Below, in pieces: positions 5,427-64,000 of a stretch of DNA of 64,000 nucleotides. The notes below the pieces were generated by a model. The model was not told the origin of the DNA and made no database searches. It saw nothing but the letters and a program-made list of their open reading frames with translations. Each line of letters starts with the position of its first letter. The stretch's first letter is position 1. The position numbers and the translations under genes were made by a program. The stretch comes from Datnioides undecimradiatus (Eukaryota; Chordata; Actinopteri; Lobotiformes; Datnioididae), in assembly GCA_008933995.1 (NCBI GenBank), contig WARS01000016.1:9007848-9071847 (forward strand), given 5' to 3'.

Positions 5427-7236
5427 TACTGTATCCTATACTACTATATACTTACACTACAATCTTCTAATGTTGTACTATCACTTAATATATTTTGTCT
5501 TCATCAGTGAAATACTACTCATTACTATTTATTTACTACTAATACTACTACCAATAATAATAATAGTAATAATAATAATAATAATAGTATGTAGGAAATA
5601 GACTTAATAGAATAATAATTCATCCAAATTGATGAAAACCTTAAACTGAACCCCTTCAAGGACCTTTGAGGATTAAAAAAAATGTCAGAATTGTGAATAA
5701 ACGGTCCTATAATTTATATTTTTTAAAACTGAAAGTAAAGAGGACCTCCTACTAGCCAACTAGTAACCATTTTTACTCTTTGGTTAGCTCGGGAAGTAGC
5801 CTTGTTTTTATTAACCCATAAATCAATAGGTTGCCTCCATGCATAATTCAAAAGAGACCCTTTATTGATGCTTTGATAATTGACAAATGGCTATCTCACT
5901 GTGGGGTGGGCCTTCATGGGCATCACTAAACAAACGCACATCTAAATATTTTCTTTATTGTATGTATAAATCCCTTTATTTGATTGTTTACTGTACCATG
6001 TGCGAATTTCTGCACGGAGGTAAGAATTTGTATGAAAAATCAGTGTAACAACGCCAATTTTTTGTTCTCCAGTAAATTAATTAATGCTTCGTGAAATATG
6101 TGACTCGTTTCTGGGTGTCTTTACCTGCACTCTCGACTCCACGAGGTCAAGCCTGAGCGCGAGCGCCTCCCGCATGAACACATCCGGATAGTGACTCTCG
6201 TTGAAAGCCTTCTCGAGCTCCTCCAGCTGCCACCCGGTGAAATTTGTCCTCGTGCGTCTTCGTTTACAACCAGGACTGTCCTTATCCGGGTCCCCCGAAT
6301 CTGCATTGGTCGTTGTATGTGTGTGTGCAAGTGCATGTGCGTGTTGACGTGTGTGTGTGTGTGTGTGTGTGCGCGTGAGTGAGTGAGAGATAAGAGAGAC
6401 TGTCATGGCAGAATTTGCTGGTAAAGCACCAGTTTGGTTTTAAACTGAACGCTGTCACACGTTTAATTTTAAGTATTTGGTTGCTCGTGAACTCTTACGA
6501 ATCTGGTCAAAAACATTTTGGCCTAAAAGAAACCTTTAAGGGCACATTTAGCATTTAAAATAATTCTTAGAATAATAATTACTACTTTCATTTGTGACCG
6601 TGCAAGAAGAATCAACCCAAGAATCAACAGCTACGATCAATGCCAGAATAATGGCATAAAGCTATCACCTTTAAGTTATTTACAGTACAGTTTTTATAAT
6701 ACAATTATTAAATAGTACATAAACTGCACATGAACTTTCTTTTCTAAAATTCACCAAGCTTCACAACTTTTAAACAACACGATTTTCTCTGCAGACTGAC
6801 TTAATCGTTCAAAAGGCTAAAAAAAAGTGTTTAATTTAGATTTAAGTGCACGTAACTTGCTTTACTTGGCCATAAAACACGCATTTACATTTATATTTAT
6901 AATTCTTCCTATTACAGCGCCTTGTTTCCATACAGGTGTATTAATGAGACATCAGACAAAAGAGCCAGGCCTACCTGAGAGTTTGAACTGCTGGCTGTCG
7001 GGCGAGAGCAGCGGGTTAGAGCTGACCACAGAGGCCGAGCAGGAGCCGTTAAGTAATCCGTCTATAGAGAAGGGGACGGCGGCCGCGGACTGCAGCTGGT
7101 GCCCGCCGGCGAGCTCGTAGACGTGCTGGTGGTGGTGGTGGTGGTGATGGGGACCGAGCGGGTACGGGAAGCCCACCAGCCCGCCCAAGGAGCCTCCGAA
7201 CTGGGCGTGAGGATGCTCGAGTACCCGACTGTCCAT
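2428..7236 (-). CDS. uncx: UNCX homeobox transcription factor
   Basis: Three coding exons, read on the minus strand: 7236-6975, 6300-6125 and 3591-2428 (stop TAA). All joins have GT-AG borders and matching phase, giving about 533 aa, close to the mammalian UNCX length. Residues 101-160 form a paired-like homeodomain that starts RRRTRTNF, continues [16 protein letters not shown] across the exon 2/3 junction, and has Q at homeodomain position 50. A seven-histidine run lies at residues 30-36. Two engrailed-homology-like repressor motifs are visible: FSIDGLLN (about 56-63) and FSVESLLS (about 317-324). A Lys/Arg/Glu-rich helix follows the homeodomain, and the protein ends in an acidic DGEDVDMD. 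Known family role: a nuclear repressor that patterns the caudal half of somites, axial skeleton, kidney and neurons. Family identity is very secure. The start is the first ATG in a GC-rich exon and gives the expected N-terminus. Confidence 0.95.
3592..6124 (-). other. uncx intron 2
   Basis: Intron between homeodomain exons 2 and 3. It holds a GC-richer block at about 4,730-4,920, an AT-rich stretch with ATT/ATC trinucleotide repeats at 5,270-5,430, and further AT-rich sequence to 5,600. No additional exon is supported. Confidence 0.7.
5270..5430. repeat. (TTA)n/(ATC)n microsatellite
   Basis: Two blocks of trinucleotide repeat, about 5,270-5,340 (mixed TTA and TCA units) and about 5,395-5,424 (TTA units), lie inside uncx intron 2. 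Confidence 0.9.
6338..6376. repeat. (GT)n microsatellite upstream of the uncx exon 2 acceptor
   Basis: A GT repeat on the plus strand, read as CA in the transcript, ends about 40 nt upstream of the acceptor of uncx coding exon 2 (first exon base 6300). Confidence 0.85.
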
Positions 7237-26961: not shown

Positions 26962-29900
26962 TTACAGCCAGTTAATTATCTGAGTAAGCAAGACAGCCAA
27001 CAGGAAAGCTCTAGAGCTATTTGCAGTACCTAGAAAGAGAAAGAGATGAAAATGAGTTACACCAATGGAAGAGCAAGAATTTAAACTTTTGCCAAGACAG
27101 GTTTAAACAAATATAATTAGAAGTTCATAGATTTAAAATCTAATTTGCAGGTCTCATTTCTTTTGGAAATACAGCACAGAAATACGATGACATTCATTTT
27201 ATGATGAAGCAGATTACTTAAACCTACCACTGTGGGCAAGGACTTCCACCTCCACTGTGAAGTTTTTTTCTTCAAGTAGTCCCTTTGCTAAGATGGTGTA
27301 TTTCCCAGAATGCCCTCTGCTTGAGCATGTGGGCAGGGCAACCACCTGCCCGTCTCTGTACCAGGTGACTAGTGGTTGAGGGTTTCCTCTCACCTCACAG
27401 TTAAGGCTCTCTCCCTCTTTCACCTGCATTTTCGGTGGACAGACAAGCTGTGGACCAACTGGGATCAAAGAGACGTTAGAGTGACGGTGTGAAGGGAAAG
27501 ACAGCAGAAAGACTTGAATGCAATAATGACTTGCAGTGTCACTCACAGAAGACAGTGCCAGTGATGTTTTGTGACATCACCACTGGAGGGGGCTGTGGTC
27601 CTTCAGGTCCCAGGTCCAGCTCAGCTTTACACCAGTACTCCCCACCATCATCTTCTTTAGTAGGCCTGATGTTTAAAGTGAAGATCTCAGTCACTGGTGT
27701 ATTGTCCTGTGTGTTCTTGGAGCGCAGTGTACCCAGTGCTGTCTGTCCTCTGTAGAAGGTGACACTGAGGTTTCCAACAGGAGCAACATCCTGTACTCTA
27801 CACTGCAGAGTGTACTCATGACCCTCCACCATTGGCTCTGTGTGAACAAAGCTGATGGACACATTATCTGGAGGCTCTGTGGAAAAAAGGGTGACATATT
27901 AACCAAATGGTAAGCCTTGATGTATTTCCTATGATGTCAGGGAGACAAAATTATGAACTCACTGTAGACTGTTACAGGTAGATTGATGTGGCAAGTCCCA
28001 CCCTGTTCAGAGAGTGCATAACAGAATGCGTCGATGGTCCATGTGCTAGTCCTGTTTACGCTCCAGACAAGAAAACGATCCATAGTGGCACTAGGACTCT
28101 CCTACAGTCGTAAAAGATCACATAATCAAGCAATTGAGGTTCTGACTAAAATAGAAAGTTACTATCTGAGTGCTTAATGTTTGTTAAGTACACCTATACA
28201 ATATAATATTCAGTTAGGCTGGCACCATCTACATCTGTGCCTTTTTGCTGACTGGGTGTGCAGTGGAATCTCGGGACATTCCCCTGAGGAGTGAACTGCC
28301 CACAGCTGGCATGTTCTCACTCACATGGACAATGCTGGATAAATGCCCTGCTTCAGCTGTGCTTGAATATTTTCAACAAACAGGTAGGTTAGGTTGAAGA
28401 CATATGGTCAGCTTTGTCACAGTAGATCTCCAATGATGGTTGTTGGACAGAACGAGAGGCCTGAAAAAGGTTTGGGCAAACCATTTAATAAACCAGGAAG
28501 GGAAGGCTGTTTGTTTTTCAGCAGGACAGGGGAATAGCTGACCTCAGAGGGGATATTGTTGGACTGAGGAAAGAACATTTAATGAACAACTTGGGGGAAC
28601 CCAAGGTGGAGGGTAGTGAGGTGGTCAAAAGACTCAGAAGCATTAACGTTCAGGGTTAACAAATAAACACATAATAGATAGCAGTGATTTCCCTACCAGT
28701 GAGACTTCCCAACCAAGAACAGAGAAGTCCGTCATTTGTACAGAGCAGTTAGCTGTGAATGGATCCCCATACCTGTGACAGGAGAGTTTACACACAATTA
28801 GTGTCCTTCCCAAACAAGTCAGCGGTAACACATGGAAAAAGAGGGGATCAGTATAAAGTAGCTGCTAGTCGGGGGGCTTGTTTTGGTACGCAACATTTTC
28901 TCCTCTGCTCCTTCTTTAAACAGCAAAAACAAGTCTAGATAATTGTCATAGTGCCAGAGTAACTCATAATCACCCACTCCTTTCTTTATTATTTATTTTT
29001 ATTATTTTATTTTGAAAGGCAAGGAGGAAAGACGCGTGAAACAGCCACAGCACCATCTCTGACTTACCTGATGACCAGAGTAGAGGGTGACATCGTCAGA
29101 AGGCATCTGACTTTTTCTGAGTGTCCAGAGCTGCTCATGAATGTGGGCATTTGGGGTGTGATATTGAGGTAAGGAGAAAGTAGAGATGGGAGGATTGATG
29201 GAGAGGGAGAGGGAGGTGAAATTTGTGATGGAAGAGGCGGAGCAGGTGTGTAAAGGGAAATGGGAGATGAGGTAACTGACGTCACAGGAATTTTCAGGGA
29301 GTGGGAGAGGACATATGACATAATAAGTCACTTACATATGGAAATGCAGGCATAAAATATCTAAAAACTGTAGACTGGAGGAGTTTTGCAATAGTGATGC
29401 TCAGATTAGATGCCCTCCACTGATGGTTATTTTTCCTTAAACTACATTCACCAATAAAACATTTAAGTGTCTTTAATCTGCTAAACTGCTAAACTGAACT
29501 CAAGGACTCAAAGGAATATGTATAATGTGTTTGTGTATCTGTGATGTGAAATCTGAAAAAAAAATTGCATCTCTTGTTTATTTTTGTACCATAACCTGTG
29601 TGAACTCATGAGTCATTTCCCCTGTTTTTACATAACAGAGTCAAAGGTCAATTGAATTTTGCCATCTTGTGAAATAATAGCTGATCTATTGTAAACCATT
29701 GTTTCGTAGCGCCCTGAATACACCCAGTGTGTTCCTCTGAGGAAGGAAGGACACCCTGCCCAAGGCAAAAGAACTCGCTCCTCTTTTCTATGACCATTGT
29801 TCCACTGAATCCAGGGGTTGTTCTGCTGCCTATCAGATGATCTCATTTATAGTAGAGCTCACTGGTGTGTGTATGTGCGTGTGTGTCTGCATACTGGCAT

Positions 29901-32964: not shown

Positions 32965-33534
32965 ATGCTGGTACCACAACTGCTCTTGGAGACTATGGAG
33001 GAACTCACTGAGAAGGAATTCCTCAAATTTAAGTGGTATCTCGCTCTGAACGTCCTGAACAACCTTAAACAATTAGCCAAGTGCTATCTGGAGACCCCAC
33101 ACCGGCATGCCATTGTGAGTAGGATGATTGAGAGCTATGGGGAAGAAATGGCTGTGAACATAACCACTGAGATCCTGAGGAGGATGAAACACAATAACGC
33201 TGCAGAGGAACTGAATAAAAGATACACAGGTGCCGTAGACCAATGAGTTTGAAGAGGCTGTTTCAAATTTGTTCAATTGTGTCTCTTGCTGATTCTTGGT
33301 GTTTAATTCACAGAGGGAGCAGCAGCTGAGGAAAAAGTCCCATGTCCACTTGTACCCTCGTCAACTGTTTTGGGTCCTCCAGCTGTGCAGAAAGCCTCTG
33401 CCGGTGGTGCAAGTAGTAGCATCGCTCCTGGGGTCATAACTACCATCAACGGTAGCCTCATTATCACTGGTGATGTTTCTGGATCAATAATAATTAATAC
33501 AGCTTACCATAAAGACGATTACCTTCAGAACTGA
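32965..33534 (+). CDS. PYD-tail protein 1 (pyrin domain plus short tail)
   Basis: Two coding exons, 32965-33229 (265 nt, pyrin domain) and 33314-33534 (tail), give 161 aa. A splice acceptor (TTCATTGAATAG) lies 2 nt before the ATG, so a noncoding leader exon precedes it; its donor is probably CTTCAG|GTGAGT at 32,171. Residues 1-88 show the PYD six-helix pattern: LLETMEELTEKEFLKFKWYL, then MIESYGEEMAVNITTEILRR and NNAAEEL. The tail is Ala/Ser/Pro-rich and ends in SLIITGDVSGSIIIN followed by a charged AYHKDDYLQN. PYDs form homotypic filaments with ASC or NLR proteins in inflammasomes. There is no other effector domain, so it resembles a PYD-only regulator. It is the first of three tandem paralogues. 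Function is inferred, not known. Confidence 0.82.
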
Positions 33535-34990
33535 AGTGGCACACAGGAGGAGGATCAAAACTTAAAAACTGAAACAGAATTCTCTAAAGTTATTTCTAGT
33601 TGTGCATTTAATGTTGTTCTAGTATAAATTAAGTGACACGTCTCATAATTTATGACAGGATATCAATGAAAACAACTCTTGATCGTACCTACCTCTGGCA
33701 GCCATTTTCACACAGGTGGCTTTGAACAAAGCATTAAACTGCAACAGCTCATTGCTCCTGCACTGCGGCTCTTCGTGCACTTTGAAGTGTTTGTGTTTAC
33801 AGCTCAATTTCTGATGATGCATTTATGTGGAATTTAAGTGAGGTAACTAAGTAGATTTTATTGCAGTTTATTCCATAACATTTGTGGTACGACCATGTGA
33901 CCATAATGGTTTAGTGCAGGACTAGAAATAAATGAATGTCCGTTATAAATGTACATTTTGGTACAAGACTTTCATTCTGCTACTTAAGTAACATTTTAAA
34001 TGAGGCGGGGTGTTTTTATAGTGTAGTATTGATTTGGGCGGATCTAAATATTTCTTTTACCACGGCATGAGAAATCAAAATTCAAAATCACTTCCCTGTT
34101 TGAACATGGCAGAATCACTGTGTGGGATTCAGGGGTGTCTTTTGTCAGAAAACAAATATAATGTTCATAATTGTCTGTCCATTTGTGTGTTGTCACCTGT
34201 AAATAAGAATAGTTGTGTTTTGTCACTTAGTATGAACCTTTTCAGTGACCTGCTTCCAAGGAGTTGATGAAATCTGACAACCTCACTTCTAAATCCCACA
34301 CAGTCTTTTAACATCATCCTGGATCTCTTGGTTTTTTGCAAATCCTTTTGTAACTTTGTTCTTGAAATTCATTGTAAAAAATAAAGTTTATGATTATTAT
34401 TATTGTTATAGAGTTGCCATGATTTGTATTAAATAGTAAGTTCACCTAAATTGCAACATAGTTCTTGAGAGTGCAGTTTATGTGTGGCCTTAAAAACAAG
34501 GCAAACAATAAAGTTTCATAAACAGATGTGGTTGAAAGCGCTGGTACTAGTAAGTGGAAAATTAATTAGTTTAATGAACATCTTTTTTTCTGCTAGAAAA
34601 TGGTTTGTTTATTTTTAGACATGACAGTGTAGTCGTGTGGATCTCGTGGTGTCATGCAGTGAGCGCTGCAAACAAAATTCAGTCCTTGGGTGAAGCATAG
34701 CTCTTGAGACATGAGACCAGATAATTTGCTGCCTTTTAAATAGTGAAACACTCAGTCCTTCACTCATTGGGGTGAAATCAAGGGTGAGGAGAGTCAAACT
34801 TCCGTCAGTCTCTTTCACTACTTCAACACAAGACCTCCAGGTCCTTCTTTTCAAAGAATACTCCCCCACTCGTCTATTCTGCTGCGCGTTGCTCTTTCGC
34901 AAACTTCCTGTCAACGCGGGAGAAACCGAAAGTAACGATTTGCGCCGTTTTCCATCATCTCTCAGAGGAACATCAGTGGGCAGCAGGCGG
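33535..34990 (+). other. 3'UTR of PYD gene 1 and intergenic DNA
   Basis: AATAAA at 34380-34385, preceded by a TTGTAAA stretch, is the likely poly(A) signal. An earlier one lies near 33,928. No additional gene is supported. Confidence 0.45.
34922..34932 (+). promoter_or_regulatory. Interferon-stimulated response element upstream of PYD gene 2
   Basis: AGAAACCGAAAGT contains GAAACCGAAAG, a perfect match to the ISRE core GAAANNGAAA. It lies about 60 nt upstream of a good splice donor (CACG|GTAAGT, exon end 34,994) that probably ends the noncoding leader exon of the second PYD gene. ISREs bind ISGF3 and IRF factors. Chance occurrence of one core in a window this size is possible, but the position is apt. 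Confidence 0.5.
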
Positions 34991-35895
34991 CACGGTAAGT
35001 CATCCAATAGAACTCATCATAAATCGTTTTTGGGTCTTGATGAAATTAGATTATATTTTTTAAGTCGTTTTTTTTTTTTTTGCCACGGCGACGTAACACT
35101 GACTGCGTTTTTCTATTTAACATGCTATGTCAGGAAAACGGATTTAAGGTAAAACAAGTCAACGTTGACTTTATGTTTCACACAAGACACAAACACCAGT
35201 TTCCTGGGTTTGTGTGACCCATTCATCCACCCCAGACTTCTACATTAGCAAACCTTGTTGCCTTTTACACTATGTCACATGACATATTTATCTCTTACAT
35301 TCTTGCGTAAAATGAGGCGCGAAAAGAAAAAAAAAACCAACACAGCAGTGCGATAACGCCTGAAAAATCTTTTGAAAGAGACGTTTTAGATTCATGTGCC
35401 ATGGTGAGACCACCATGGTGTTCAGTGAACTTGTCACCAGCCTGGTGAGTCATGCTATCAACATGCAATATGGGTAACATGCTTTTTAATGACTGACACT
35501 TGCCATTGTAGATTTGAATGCTTTTTGTCACAACTTAATGAATGATTTACTAATATTTGTTCCTGCAAATATGACGACATGAGAAAGTACCAGAGTTATG
35601 ACATGAATGATTTACTAAGGTTTATAACTGCAGACTTGATGGCTCATTCAAGAGTGACAAACTCATTTTGCATCTTCCCGGTGAATTAAAGAGCCAGTGA
35701 AAAGACACTTTGACAGCTGACAAATGTTATCTTTAATATTTAGAATGAACATTATTTTCATTTGATTGTATTGGTCGCAACCATATCACGTCACTTTTGG
35801 CAATAAAAAATAAGAGTACTGTCAAATTATTCCTTTAATGTTGTAGGCTAATGTCGAAACTAATTTCCCCTCCTCTACCTGTTAAGTGAGCAGAC

Positions 35896-36411
35896 ATGCT
35901 GGTTCCACAGCTTCTCTTTGAGACTCTGGAGGAGCTGATCGATAATGACCTGAAAACATTCAAGTTTTACCTCTCGATGGAAGTCCTTGCAAACTGCAGA
36001 CCAATCCCGAAGTCCCGTCTGCACTCAGCCTCTCGGACAGAAACTGTGACTCACATGATAGAGAGCTATGGAGAGGAGTTGGCTGTGAACATCACCATTG
36101 CGATTCTGATGAAGATGAGCTTCAGACGTACTGCGAATGACTTGCAGAGCAGATATGCAGGTGCAGTGGATGTCATGAACCAAACTCAGTTGCTTTCCAG
36201 TTTGTTTGCCTTTTTAGACGTATCATTTGTGACTCTTTTCATCTGGATCTTTCCATCTGCAGAGGGAAGAACAGCGACAACGTCCATCTCCTCCTCTGCT
36301 GCAGCACCTGTTGCTGCTGCAGCCATAATGGCTCAGCAAGGAAGTGTGATCATCGCACCAGCGATCACTGGCAGCACAACTGGATCACTAAATATAACAA
36401 TCAAGAAATAA
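35896..36411 (+). CDS. PYD-tail protein 2
   Basis: Coding exons 35896-36160 (265 nt) and 36263-36411 give 137 aa. An acceptor (TAAGTGAGCAG) sits 2 nt before the ATG, implying an upstream leader exon. The PYD reads MLVPQLLFETLEELIDNDLK, later MIESYGEELAVNITIAILMK. The tail is Ser/Ala-rich and ends SVIIAPAITGSTTGSLNI followed by TIKK. The 102-nt intron is in frame and free of stops, so intron retention would give a 171-aa form carrying an inserted hydrophobic segment (LLSSLFAFLDVSFVTLFIWI). It is a tandem paralogue of the genes at 32,965 and 39,026. By family it should take part in PYD filament assembly; the role of the tail is unknown. A likely poly(A) signal is AATAAA at 36822-36827. Confidence 0.83.
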   Translation: MLVPQLLFETLEELIDNDLKTFKFYLSMEVLANCRPIPKSRLHSASRTETVTHMIESYGEELAVNITIAILMKMSFRRTANDLQSRYAGAVDVMNQTQLLSSLFAFLDVSFVTLFIWIFPSAEGRTATTSISSSAAAPVAAAAIMAQQGSVIIAPAITGSTTGSLNITIKK

Positions 36412-39010
36412 ACTCATGTAGTACTGTTTTTAACAACATCTGCAAGCCAGTCACAAGCACATATTTTAAGTCATAACCTTACTTATGATATATGTATTTT
36501 ATAAGATTACAACTTTAGTGTAATGTCATTGGAGTTGTAGTTGTTTACAAATGAGGCAATAATTAATGATTGTATTTGTTTCATACAAACAGGCTTAAAG
36601 TAAAGTAAAGTTTATGATCTTTGGCATATATTTCTTTCATCTGGTGCTGATTTTAAGTCTCAAAGAGCAAGTTCAAGTGTAAAGATGACCAATACAGTGA
36701 CATGACACCATGTATTGGTGGGAAATAATTTGTGGTGTTTTTAGACTCAATAGTTAACATTACATATGAATAGATTTATTATTTTAAAATCTGCATTAAA
36801 AAATATGTGGTTCATTTTCTAAATAAACATCAACAAAACAACCAGTGTAGTCTGTTTTAACACTACTGTAGATTTTCATTAGGTATCTGTATTCCCACTG
36901 TGCCCACTGTGATTTTTCTAGAATAGAAAATAATGAAAATTACTGGAATAAAAAAAAATGTGTTTTAAAGCGTTACGTGGTAAAGAGGTCAGTCCTGTGC
37001 AGGAAAGGCTGATTCGACTAATGCAGAACAGCACAGGCATTGCCAGTAACATTAACATGACTGTGTTCTATCCTAATATCACAGTAAGCCACATAAATTG
37101 AGTTTACTCTGCCTTGACTACTTTCACTCTCTTTAAAAATTATCTTCACTGGAAAATGTCTGTCAACAATCTGTCTTTTACAACTGAAACGCAGTTGATT
37201 GAACTAATCCTGTGTGACTGTTGGTCCTGGTCTTGCATAAGGTGCTTGTCATCCCCAGTGTGTATCAGCAGGTGGAGCTGGGGAACACACTGATGTGACA
37301 TCCCCTCTGAACCAGAAGTTTTCAGATCAATAAAGAGCAAAGCTACAGCGTGGAACAACTGCAACAAGATCTGATTCTTCAAAAACTGATATTAAGTAAG
37401 TCCAATTCAATAACCAGTTAAAGCAGTGACTGTGAAGATGAAGAGATTGTACTTCAATCACTTCAATATTTTGCAGTGATTTTCCAGTAAACAGTTTTAG
37501 ATATTCATTCATTTTTTTTTATCCGTACAGTTAGATGGCTGCTATACTTAAATATACCAGGCTTCATATTTATTTTTTTTTTCACAAACACAAGTTATCT
37601 ACATACAGATATTTCTTTATTTTTCTTTATATTTCCAACATTTCTTTATTTATTCTTCATATTTCCTATATATATTTTTTTAGAACAGAAGAAAAGATTA
37701 GATGAATATTTAACAAAATTTAAAACTGCACTGTACAGTAGCTCAGCTCACAAATATTTTGCAATATGCCTCTGTCGCAGAAATATAACTTTGGAAAACT
37801 GTCCTTTCAAAGGGAATTTAAGTGCTTACGCTGCTGATCAAACACAGTGGAATTTCCTGGAAAAAACTTATATTGTACAAGGAGAGACATGGTTGGATGT
37901 AAGTGTCATTTTCTTGTGGGAAAGCACTTAATGTGGTTAGCATAGATACCTTGTCTCGCACGCAACTGTAATGATGTAAGTGTTTTTATGTCAGCCCTCT
38001 GGTCAGTCTTTCTCTGAAACATGTGACTGGAACCTGCATACGTGGTTGTGGTTTGCAGTTGTTCCTACTAAGCAGATTTAATTTAGAAACTAAAAGTGCC
38101 AACAAATTCACACAAACTCATTAGCTTTACTTCTGTCTGGGCGTCTGTGTGGTTACTGGAGCAGCTACTGTTGACTTGAAAAATTATATTATGTAAGTAT
38201 AAAATTCTCTTACTCATATTCATTATCAGCATAGCTTGACGCATCCTAAAGGCGTTGATGGTGAAGTGAATTTACTTTGGTTTGTTTTCTTTAAATTGGC
38301 GATTGATCATTTAAAAATCGTATTACCCTGCTCGTGTCAAATCTTAAATGAAGCTTAAAAAAGGTTTTACAGTCGTGTATGTGTCTGTGTACACGATGCA
38401 CACATGTAACAAAAATGCAACAAGTGTGGTGGCGTATTTTTGAGCCTGTATAGCCTGTATGGGAGAGAAAGCAGCATGCTAAAATGAAGACCTTTTATTG
38501 ACTACTAGTATTCATTTTAATATGAAAAAGATATTATATTATGGTTATAAGGTTCTGTTGAAAAGATAATGCAGGTACAGCTGAAAACTTGAAAACATAA
38601 CGTCTCTCTTCACGCACAGAACTCTGTTCAACAAAAAAATTAATTCTTGAAGTCTCCATATCTAACGATCAAAAACTGAAGACGGATATTAATAATGCAG
38701 CGATATTGTAGAGGTGACTATTGGTGCTTTCACAGAATATTTATGCATGAATTTTTTGATAAATAATCATCAGCAAAGTGGATAAAATGATGAAATGAGT
38801 AGAGACGAATGACAGAACAGGTTTAACAGTCGGGTAAGTTCAGGAAATCACGTAACTTTACTGTAAATGATATTACGATTACACCCAAAATCTAAGACAA
38901 TATCTAGTTGTACATTCCTTTATCAATATCGTATTGATGTAGTGCCCAGCCCTCAACACTCAATAAATTGCAGGCCAATCTGCAAACTGAAAGCTTGTTT
39001 TCTTTCCTCT
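36412..39010 (+). other. Intergenic DNA between PYD genes 2 and 3
   Basis: Leader-exon donors for the third gene could be TAT|GTAAGT near 38,193 or ATTAA|GTAAGT near 37,397. An imperfect ISRE-like motif, GAAACTAAAAG, lies at 38086-38096. No complete additional gene is seen; a short tail-like open stretch near 37,000 is discussed separately. Confidence 0.4.
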
Positions 39011-39025
39011 GTTCAGAGATCAGAA

Positions 39026-39596
39026 ATGCAGGTTTCACTTTTGATCTTAAACACTCTGGATGAGCTGGGTGCTGATGACTTCAAGAGGTTTCGGTGGAAT
39101 CTCACTCAGCCAGTGCTAGACAAGTGTCAGCCCATCCCTAAGGGCTATCTGGAGAGGGCAGACCGGCAGGACACTGTCAGTAAGATGATCGACAGCTATG
39201 GTGAAGAATCAGCAGTGAACATAACCGTTGAAATCCTGAAGAGGATGAACCACAACAACGCTGCGGAAAAATTAAAGCAAGCATGTGCAGGTGGGATAGA
39301 TCATCAGCTACCAGATAATGAAAGTGCTTTACCTTTGTTTTGCAGTTTCTCTCAAGCTTCAATCTTAAGTTTAATTGTGCAAAATTATTCTGTTTTTTTT
39401 CTGTCTGTCATCCCCAGGGCGACCAGCAGCTGCACAAAACTCCCTTCCGACACCTTCCTCCACTTCCTCTTCTTCTGCTTTGACCCCTGCTGACGGTGCC
39501 ACAGTTTGTGCCCAGGGCAGAAGTGTTATCGTGGCACCCAACATCCAAGGCACCAGCTCTGGTGTATCAATCAATATGAACATAAATACACAGTAA
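39026..39596 (+). CDS. PYD-tail protein 3
   Basis: Coding exons 39026-39290 (265 nt) and 39418-39596 give 147 aa. The acceptor CCTCTGTTCAG lies 9 nt upstream of the ATG, so a leader exon again precedes it. The upstream open frame from 38,867 is intronic and was not used as the start. The PYD reads SLLILNTLDELGADDFKRF, then KMIDSYGEESAVNITVEILK. The tail is Ser/Thr/Pro/Ala-rich and ends SVIVAPNIQGTSSGVSINM followed by NINTQ, alignable with paralogue 2. AATAAA near 39,764 is a likely poly(A) signal. It shares exon lengths, phase-1 intron and orientation with the two upstream copies, so the trio arose by tandem duplication. Confidence 0.83.
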
Positions 39597-61553: not shown

Positions 61554-64000
61554 TCACTTGGAAACAACCGCCTTCTTAGTAATGCTTGCTCTCCTGCTTC
61601 CTCCTCCTGCAGCTCCTCCTCCTCCCTGCCAAAGATGGCTGGGGATGGTGAAGGCGTCTACGCTCATGCCCATGGTTTTAGAGGGGATGGCACTAAACTG
61701 CTTCCTGTCTGAGCTGTACTTGTAGATGGACTCCACCTGAGTGGGGCCTATTGTTCGTGGGCCGACGCCAGCCAATCGTACAAGCTCCTGGGAGTCAGAG
61801 TTCATGGTGTAAACGCCCCTGAACTGGCAGTTGGAATCACGGAAGAGGATAAGAAAGTGGTTTGCAGGACTTTTCTCCATCTCCTGAAGTTGGAAGAAAG
61901 TGAGACAAAGAAAAATATAAAGTAAATAAAATATCATGTTGGCTGTATGTTTAATGTTTCATTTTCAACTACTTGTGCCTCCAAATAACATTCACGAAAA
62001 GACTGAAATGATTGATAGCATTCATTTTTCTGATAAGATACCAAAGTGGCTTACAGTAAGTATTGGTCTACCTCAACTATCTTGTTTTTTTGGGTCTCGT
62101 TGACCTTTCCAGCAAGGCAGCAGCGAGAGAGGGCATTGTGAATGATGAATTTGTTGGACTTGAAGCTTGGTTCTTTAAAGAGCTTTGGACCTGCAAACAC
62201 AAACATGGGCACTCTTGTCTCATGTGTCTGATCATAGACATTTTTGCGCAATGCCTGTGAAAATTGAAAAATACTGTACCTGTGTACTCCGGGGCAGGCG
62301 AGGTACCATTGGAACCAGTCTCCCATTCTTTTTCTCCATTCCCATTTGCCAGTTTACTTGGCGTCACACATCCTGCAGGTGAATCAGGACGGCTGTGGAA
62401 AAATGTCAGACAGTACATTGATAGGCCATTACTTCATAACATATCTGCATTAAACTTGACAATAAGCTGGATCATCAATAAGGGAGCATCAATCTCCCCT
62501 CTATTGCTGTTTTTTGACATACCTTGAAAAAGGTTAGTGATAATTAGAAATGCATATAAAGCAACTAACCACTATACAAGTGTGCTTGTTATGAGGAAAA
62601 TGTGAGCTGTCCTCACATGGCAGGAATAAAAGTGGATGGATACTGATGCCAAAAAGCAGTTAGCTGTATGGTCAAAAAAAAAACAGAAGAGCCTTTCAAT
62701 CTAACAAGGTTTGGATTCACAACTCTCAACCTGACAAGGCTTGGATACAAGGTGAGAGCAGGACCCAGATGCAGGCAGGAACAAGGACGCAAAGGATCTT
62801 TTAACAGTTTATTTAAAGTCATAAAACATTGCCAAAGTCATTTAAATCTTCTTTGAGGTAACAAGAATTCCTGTACCAACTTCATCACAATCAACAGATC
62901 AGCACTTCCAGCTCTCAGCTAACATTGTGGCTAAAATGCATTAATGAGAGTAAGAATTAAAACAAACTGTGCAGCAGTGTACCTGTTGGGTTTCTTTGTG
63001 GGATCAGCACATTTGTTTCCTGACTCATCTGTGGCTGCCAGGTTCAGGGAGGAGTGAGAGTAGACTTTGGTCAACTTTGAGCCTGGGGAAACATATATAT
63101 TAATGAACTGAATTAATCTACAAACAGCTATAAATCATTTGGTAACTTTTATTTTCCCTTTTGACTTTACCAGTTATTCCCTTGGCTGGACTCAGCGACA
63201 GCTGTGTTTCCTCCCTGGTCATGCTGCGAGGCCTGGAGCGGGTTTTCTTAGTGGAAGATCGTCCTTGATTGGTTGATTTCTGCCTAAGTATTTTGTCCAA
63301 GTCATCCATGATCCTGAGTTGTTGCCGCCGTGCATACTCTCCTCGTGTGAAATCTCCGCGGCGGGCTGGTGTAGCAGGAGGTGTAGGGGAAGGGGAGGTT
63401 GTCCCTGCAGGAGGTGTATTGGAAGGAGATGCCACTCTTTTGTCTGAGGATGCTTGTCTGAAACCAAGAGCAATGGGGTTACTTTGATATGGATGCATAA
63501 CAGCTTTGGAGTTACAAATGTACAAATCTAAGCAGCGTAGTGTTTGGATGCAAACAACTATGTAATCTGTGTGTATTTATTGATGTGTTTGTCTTTGTTA
63601 CCTGTTTTCCCTTTCTTGCTCATGCCACTGTCTCCTCCTCTTTAGCTCTTCAGTTCTCTTCTGCTGTTTTTCCAGCAGGAAAGCTCTACGCTGGGCCATC
63701 TCCCCCTCGCTATGTACTTCCTCCTACAACCACGTCAGCACAGACTCATATTGTAAATGCCATGACAAAGAATCAATGTGCACTGAAAACCCTTCTAGTC
63801 TGTATTTGTAAGTTCTCACCTTAAAGAAGAACTGAATTCCTCCTCTTGGCCCCGGCTCGTTCTGTTCTCTGCTTCCAGTATGTCTTGTTTGTTCTCCTTT
63901 GGATTCAGTTTGTTGTTCTTGCAAGTTGCCGGCATCCATGGCCAGTTCCAGCTGCTCTATGGGGTCAAGAGGTTCTGCAGCAAGTCCTCTAGCAGCTTCA
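61554..64000 (-). CDS. camsap3: CAMSAP family microtubule minus-end-binding protein (3' part)
   Basis: Seven exons on the minus strand: 64000(continuing)-63820, 63723-63602, 63457-63171, 63082-62983, 62392-62280, 62190-62072 and 61883-61554 (TGA). All joins are phase-consistent; the 5' part lies outside the window. A charged coiled-coil segment (MAQRRAFLLEKQQKRTEELK) is followed by the family motif GEYARRQQLRIMDDLDKIL, then SKLTKVYS. The C-terminal CKK domain reads NKFIIHNALSRCCLAGKVNE, NHFLILFRD, IYKYSSDRKQF and a closing PSHLW. A Gly-rich tail with basic residues ends the protein. The CKK domain binds microtubule minus ends between protofilaments; family members stabilise non-centrosomal microtubules. 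CAMSAP3 is chosen over CAMSAP1/2 mainly because GPR108 is nearby, so the paralogue call is less certain than the family. Confidence 0.88.
62735..62830. repeat. Possible interspersed repeat fragment in a CAMSAP intron
   Basis: The phrase 'gcaggacccagatgcaggca' followed by 'ttttaacagtttattta' resembles a repeat common in teleost introns, recognised from memory. Ends and family are not identified. Confidence 0.3.

Follow-up and report, generated by a model that had tools for sequence, protein, structure and literature searches.

The closest described counterparts of the element reported here are fungal receptor–partner pairs; the element itself is a short protein motif encoded by tandem pyrin-domain (PYD) genes of the fish Datnioides undecimradiatus (assembly GCA_008933995.1, contig WARS01000016.1, positions 9,007,848 to 9,071,847 of the forward strand; this whole stretch of 64,000 nucleotides is hereafter the window). 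In the fungal pairs NWD2/HET-S, FNT1/HELLF and PNT1/HELLP (HRAM and PP motifs), a short motif is N-terminal in a nucleotide-binding receptor and C-terminal in a separate partner, with conserved G and N/Q residues within short beta strands, as described in the relevant parts of PMC7885112 and PMC7889193. The latter records that the pyrin domains between NLRP3 and ASC can be replaced by NWD2 R0 and the HET-s domain (PMC7889193), a strong precedent for motif-driven PYD recruitment. Amyloid motifs linked to nucleotide-binding, leucine-rich repeat receptors (NLRs) are placed there in fungi and bacteria, and the animal examples are RHIM and RHIM-related motifs of mammals and flies (PMC7889193). In fish, the N-termini described for NLR-C receptors (FISNA-NACHT-LRR, often with B30.2) are death-fold domains or ~30-residue peptide repeats, and the relevant part of that account does not name the motif reported here (PMC4852459).

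The window carries three such PYD genes (g1, g2 and g3). The tails of g2 and g3 carry, as judged by sequence comparison, the same ~28-residue module as the N-terminal region of an NLR of the same genome (L014), encoded in both by a phase-1 exon. As in the fungal pairs, the motif is N-terminal in the receptor (L014 and 19 database NLR models, all with FISNA and NACHT as in NLR-C) and C-terminal in a separate partner with a signalling domain (g2, g3 and 31 of 43 g3 homologues; g1 departs from this). The partner is a PYD protein here, whereas it is a HeLo/HELL cell-death protein in fungi, and the fish genes are not adjacent (the trio on contig C325, L014 on C465). This likeness is drawn from motif descriptions, and the amyloid nature of the fish motif is a prediction.

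Three tandem PYD genes and their tails

The gene anatomy given in the initial annotation was reproduced: all three genes consist of a PYD exon of exactly 265 nt and a tail exon, parted by a phase-1 intron (84, 102 and 127 nt in g1, g2 and g3), and a low-complexity linker separates PYD and motif. The features, all on the + strand, are as follows.

32965-33534, +: g1, whole gene (PYD exon, intron, tail exon)
32965-33229, +: g1 exon 1, 265 nt, pyrin domain (PF02758, E 1.4e-15)
33230-33313, +: g1 intron, GT-AG, 84 nt, phase 1
33314-33534, +: g1 exon 2, linker and putative degenerate tail, stop at end (open frame)
33409-33468, +: g1 putative degenerate motif ASSSIAPGVITTINGSLIIT (weak; shown in the register that fits g2 best)
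35896-36411, +: g2, whole gene (PYD exon, intron, tail exon)
35896-36160, +: g2 exon 1, 265 nt, pyrin domain (PF02758, E 2.3e-17)
36161-36262, +: g2 intron, GT-AG, 102 nt, phase 1
36263-36411, +: g2 exon 2, encoding a Ser/Ala/Pro linker, the motif tail and the stop
36331-36408, +: g2 motif AQQGSVIIAPAITGSTTGSLNITIKK (matches the tail profile and the NLR-motif profile)
39026-39596, +: g3, whole gene (PYD exon, intron, tail exon)
39026-39290, +: g3 exon 1, 265 nt, pyrin domain (PF02758, E 3.4e-22)
39291-39417, +: g3 intron, GT-AG, 127 nt, phase 1
39418-39596, +: g3 exon 2, encoding a Ser/Thr/Pro linker, the motif tail and the stop
39510-39593, +: g3 motif AQGRSVIVAPNIQGTSSGVSINMNINTQ (closely kept in homologues; matches the tail profile)

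The PYDs of g1, g2 and g3 scored 57.7, 63.4 and 78.8 bits with PF02758, against a curated cut-off of 22.9 bits, and PYD was the sole Pfam family above cut-off in each protein. Among PDB entries, the g3 PYD matched the pyrin PYD (E 9.6e-9) and the NLRP3 PYD (E 6.5e-8). Relative to ASC, whose charges at positions 13, 21, 41 and 48 act in filaments, g3 has D, K, K and D and so retains filament-type charges; g1 has L and H at ASC K21 and D48, losing both charges, and g2 loses that of D48.

The g2 and g3 tails follow the consensus A-Q-x-x-[SG]-x-[IV]-[IV]-A-P-x-[IV]-x-G-[ST]-x-x-G-(x)-x-[IL]-N-x-x-I. Their local alignment score (z = 8.2) was reached by none of 2000 shuffles, and both were recovered (g2 at E 1.6e-10, g3 at E 5.7e-20) by a tail profile built from 29 non-Albula g3-homologue tails with the window rows left out (E-values set for 25,000 proteins), in agreement with the good alignment of tails 2 and 3 noted earlier. 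Against 6794 decoys, the best scores were 8.6 bits for this tail profile and 7.1 bits for the NLR-motif profile used below.

A search of 5.8 billion proteins with g3 returned 43 matches at E ≤ 0.001, the named ones being fishes, mainly percomorphs, together with three Albula glossodonta proteins. The motif pattern is present in 31 of the 43; the remaining 12 are 91-127 residues long, several appearing to end at or just after the PYD exon, and one of them (P0038) terminates in a partial motif. We aligned 23 full-length homologues, hand-picked from the 31 with the motif, and obtained mean majority identities of 0.80 for the PYD, 0.76 for the motif and 0.57 for the linker (0.84, 0.82 and 0.64, respectively, over 19 g3-type rows). 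The motif ranks 57th of 124 windows in the homologue alignment and the best PYD stretches rank higher; its conservation is domain-like and no higher. Where present, the motif is thus constrained relative to the linker. P0001 (Semicossyphus) reads as a g2-like tail run into a g3-type PYD, and therefore the tandem order seems kept in that fish. Some small homologues are named 'caspase b-like', yet only PF02758 is listed for them.

The zoarcoid g3-type proteins P0019, P0022 and P0035 (Zoarces viviparus, Anarhichas minor) end in PGEGSESCC[FV]VF[TK]PNV, which follows the motif in P0019 and P0022 and replaces it in P0035.

The motif near the N-terminus of NLRs

The 581-Mb assembly contains at least 27 PYD matches, three of which are the window trio, and at least 42 FISNA matches. 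We fetched 19 stretches of ~10 kb covering 24 PYD matches outside the window and scanned them with a profile (A1) made from the first tail alignment, with the window rows included and g1 in the register SLIITGDVSGSIIIN. One further copy was found at E < 0.01, in L014 (E 3.8e-4), with AG/GT at the exon borders of the features below.

L014 (contig C465 of assembly G000) 3630-3490, -: motif exon, 141 nt, phase 1 at both ends
L014 3418-3347, -: exon after the motif exon, 72 nt
L014 from 3234, -: FISNA-NACHT exon (Pfam)

The motif thus sits on its own exon, two exons before FISNA-NACHT, and the L014 peptide TAQSGSTVVAPSIIGSTIGNLNISV aligns with AQQGSVIIAPAITGSTTGSLNITI of g2. A genome search with the short g3 tail retrieved g3 itself alone, plus one candidate at first look.

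Adjoining this NLR, L014 8121-4927 (-) holds an apparent PYD-RING-coiled-coil gene, whose PYD and RING match Pfam, whose coiled coil is below cut-off and whose PRY-like end was seen by eye. The sequence GAAAGTGAAA occurs at L014 5654-5663 (-), ~1.5 kb upstream of where the NLR probably starts, a single occurrence against 1.08 expected.

Two database searches extended the finding. With the L014 exon and linker as the query region, eight NLRs among 91 candidates reached E ≤ 10; with scoring confined to five motif variants, 15 of 893 candidates did so, namely 14 FISNA-NACHT NLRs (three already found) and one Albula goreensis protein; no caspase was among these 15 matches (proteins of ~415-1320 aa). 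In total, 19 NLR models (FISNA-NACHT-LRR) from 16 named species and one unnamed record carry the motif within their first 140 residues, the pattern starting at residues 6-68, and PF02758 is listed for none of them. Because these searches select on the motif, its presence in the 19 models is circular; the non-circular result is that all 15 motif-variant matches are NLRs or PYD proteins. In eight of the 19, the motif had an identity of 0.86, compared with 0.68 and 0.74 for the stretches preceding and following it, 0.84 for FISNA and 0.89 for NACHT. P0048 (Thunnus) is a distinct NLR that shares 45% identity with P0044 and lacks B30.2; it seems to bear beside the motif a ~30-residue repeat of the zebrafish NLR type. 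Both halves, a PYD-tail protein and a motif NLR, were found in Larimichthys crocea, Semicossyphus pulcher, Thunnus maccoyii and Siniperca chuatsi, and the window's own fish is the fifth such species.

Albula P0052 joins the two halves in the order PYD, motif, short FISNA-like start, LRRs and PRY. Its LRR-PRY part aligns with P0044, its FISNA-like start was equalled by 5 of 3000 shuffles, and the model is without NACHT, maybe through an annotation gap. This fused form suggests that PYD, motif and NLR were once on one chain, which would later have split in percomorphs. An 'APxxxG'-type motif beside fish NLR N-termini, offered tentatively in the initial annotation, is therefore real (19 NLR models and L014), and the motif recurs outside the trio together with PYD in 31 of 43 homologues, with FISNA-NACHT in these NLRs, and in P0052.

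Many of the records P0044-P0063 are named 'NACHT, LRR and PYD domains-containing protein 3-like' despite having no PYD listed, and P0058, whose nr name is Mustela putorius, is probably a mislabelled or contaminated record.

Comparison of the adaptor and receptor motifs

The NLR-motif profile recovered g2 (E 1e-4), P0025 (7.3e-4), P0041 (0.0024), P0052 (0.0011) and the Albula protein P0042 (2.6e-7), and the tail profile recovered L014 (E 0.0021). Alignment of the 29 tails with the 19 NLR motifs by hhalign gave a probability of 95.2 (E 2.6e-8 for one comparison). In pairwise tests, g2-L014 (z 11.6) and g3-L014 (z 5.0) were each matched by 0 of 2000 composition-keeping shuffles, and g3 against the NLR consensus by 1 of 2000. 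Mean scores against the NLR motifs were 53.6 for six g2-type tails, 59.3 for two Albula tails and 45.9 for 25 g3-type tails; since g2-type tails score above g3-type tails, g2 is the likelier direct partner of the NLR on these alignments. That the likeness reflects convergence of low-complexity, beta-prone sequence is very improbable: the motif is short and rich in S, G, N, I and V, and many cross-profile scores, that of g3 included, are near noise, but the shuffle tests and hhalign result, the common order AQ-AP-I-G-G-N-I, and the Albula proteins that match the NLR profile, one bearing the motif in an NLR-like gene model, all speak against it.

The tail of g1 was missed by both the tail and NLR-motif profiles. 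Its best ungapped register with g2 is ASSSIAPGVITTINGSLIIT, not the SLIITGDVSGSIIIN of the initial annotation; the score against g2 was reached by 53 of 5000 shuffles, and for the four other motifs tried the corresponding number ranged from 220 to 974 of 5000. Whole tail exons compared better (7 of 2000 shuffles for g1-g3, 21 of 2000 for g1-g2), a result that shared Ser/Ala/Pro composition can help. We accordingly rejected g1 as an equal member, the profiles and shuffle tests being against it; its tail is at best a degenerate copy, and g1 may be a decaying or dominant-negative/regulatory copy, or may have moved to another partner. Of the initial annotation, the gene anatomy, the PYDs, the g2 and g3 tails and the notion of a shared, constrained motif therefore held, whereas the description of tail 1 as a looser version of it did not. 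Neither of the two outcomes that it had named as refuting, absence of the motif outside the trio and tails evolving without constraint, came about.

Sequence character and predicted structure of the motif

Each motif has two beta-prone stretches flanking a G-rich turn (sequence analysis with a propensity scale). Over 43 distinct motif stretches, the best seven-residue alternation on this scale averaged 1.218 and lay most often at VSINMNI or GNININI; the highest value in 300 rounds of shuffling was 0.932. The sequence thus suggests two beta-prone strands with N/I alternation, and the motif may self- or cross-assemble. Profile A1 matched no solved structure up to E 10.

RHIM, found in RIPK1, RIPK3, TRIF and ZBP1, is likewise a short vertebrate immune assembly motif common to adaptors and kinases. 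RHIM identity was rejected: none of the 43 homologues has the [IV]-Q-[IVLC]-G core at or beyond residue 81, and it is likewise missing from the N-terminal 140 residues of P0052 and of the 19 NLRs. No RHIM family (PF12721) appeared among the Pfam matches listed up to E 10, from which weak matches above ~0.1 were mostly filtered out.

A proposed split inflammasome and its alternatives

The reading that we favour, at a probability of roughly one half, is a split inflammasome: an NLR lacking a PYD would bring in PYD adaptors by means of a motif, probably amyloid-like, that both sides carry. The motif is shared and conserved; from this we infer assembly and signalling as follows. g2 and g3 would be PYD adaptors acting in trans for an NLR without its own pyrin domain. 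On ligand sensing, the NLR would oligomerise through NACHT, and its clustered N-terminal motifs would nucleate a cross-beta (amyloid-like) stack with strand 1 'SVIVAPxI', turn 'GTSSG' and strand 2 'INxNI'. The g2 and g3 tails would join, or be templated by, this stack; the flexible linker would let their PYDs gather, and the PYD cluster could nucleate ASC or PYD-caspase filaments. We favour adaptor recruitment on an oligomerised NLR because of the g3 charges and because the motif is C-terminal in the adaptors and N-terminal in the sensor. The result would be a natural two-piece NLRP inflammasome, by analogy with NWD2/HET-S.

The broader proposal is more tentative than its core: in teleosts, a receptor with both PYD and NACHT may have come apart into a sensor without PYD and separate PYD adaptors, the two being reunited by amyloid signalling motifs of a new family, possibly the first NLR-associated one in animals. 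Within the open-licence PMC literature searched we found no earlier report of the motif sharing, and 'amyloid' and 'RHIM' each had 0 occurrences in fish inflammasome and NLR reviews. If true, the proposal would extend the logic of NLR-linked amyloid motifs to vertebrate inflammasomes, explain how 'NLRP3-like' NLRs without a pyrin domain could signal, and provide a naturally split receptor in which nucleation could be studied step by step.

Several observations weigh against the split inflammasome. Its binding and aggregation steps are predictions from sequence, and trio and receptor lie on separate contigs, not side by side as in fungal pairs. The motif was found upstream of FISNA in 1 of 42 loci (L014), within the stretch searched; each locus was scanned ~1.5 kb or more upstream (34 in freshly fetched stretches, 20 + 14, and eight in earlier ones), and the best score in the 34 new stretches was 6.7 bits, which is noise, although a more distant motif exon would escape. 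The number of loci may itself be too high: contigs C473/C474 and C205/C207 give paired matches at nearly equal positions, which suggests that both haplotypes were kept in the assembly and family counts inflated, and since at least two contig pairs resemble duplicate haplotypes, 42 FISNA loci may overstate gene number. A PYD exon lies ~4 kb upstream of the L014 NLR on the same strand, apparently in the PYD-RING gene, and the database NLR models could miss an upstream PYD exon; most of the 19 look like orthologues of one gene. Cross-profile scores are uneven: g3 receives 5.7 bits from the NLR profile, under the best decoy (7.1), most g3-type tails receive 4-10 bits, and the 19 database NLRs receive 5.2-12.8 bits from the tail profile, whose best decoy reaches 8.6. 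Among the homologues, P0031 and P0035 (Zoarces) and P0043 (Albula) end in non-motif sequence, and g1 does not fit the shared-motif scheme. AlphaFold2 gave a confident PYD and a disordered tail for the single chain (predicted local distance difference test score, pLDDT, ~45), which neither supports nor refutes assembly because a monomer prediction cannot show it, and the NLR fold predicted from eight sequences was too poor for use (mean pLDDT 47.4).

Among the alternatives, the strongest, which we consider less likely, is that the small genes arose by truncation from a PYD-motif-NACHT NLR and retained its first two exons; the motif would then dock onto a third protein or act as a structural linker, with no direct joining of adaptor and NLR. 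P0052 resembles the fused form that this requires, phase-1 exons make truncation easy, and conservation alone does not name the partner. Set against this, the motif persists near the N-terminus of 19 NLR models with no PYD listed and is therefore not just a PYD-NACHT spacer, and a strand-turn-strand pattern with N/I alternation is, in our judgement, unusual for a simple linear docking peptide.

Less probable still is that the trio are inhibitors resembling PYD-only proteins (POPs), which would poison ASC or NLRP filaments and use the tail for stability or localisation alone. Like POPs, they are small proteins with PYD as their one Pfam domain over cut-off, and the charges lost in g1 (ASC K21 and D48) and g2 (D48) would suit such a role; g3, however, retains filament-type charges, and the tail is about as conserved as the PYD and common to an NLR. 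POPs, mammalian ones included, are not known to have a conserved second motif common to an NLR. Membership among POPs, taken as having no conserved element beyond the PYD, was rejected on the identities of the 23 chosen homologues (motif 0.76, linker 0.57). The trio also resembles ASC (PYCARD) in having an N-terminal PYD in a small protein and a second, C-terminal interaction element; that element is a CARD facing caspase in ASC, whereas here it is a motif of 28 residues, which would be directed at the receptor. ASC membership was likewise rejected, no CARD being listed for g1-g3 and PYD alone being over cut-off.

Regulatory-like sites and neighbouring genes

An interferon-stimulated response element (ISRE)-like sequence, GAAACCGAAA, lies at 34922-34931 (+), ~970 nt before the g2 start codon and upstream of 34995, where a GT could be the donor of a g2 5' untranslated exon. 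This single site is only a lead to interferon control, because such sites are more frequent than expected across the window as a whole (15 vs 4.69). NF-kB-like GGGRNWYYCC sites gave no signal in the window (2 found vs 3.46 expected). Neighbouring features of the window are as follows.

6077-6439, -: homeodomain exon (PF00046)
27214-27898, -: Ig-domain exons
61554-61958, -: CAMSAP CKK-domain exon

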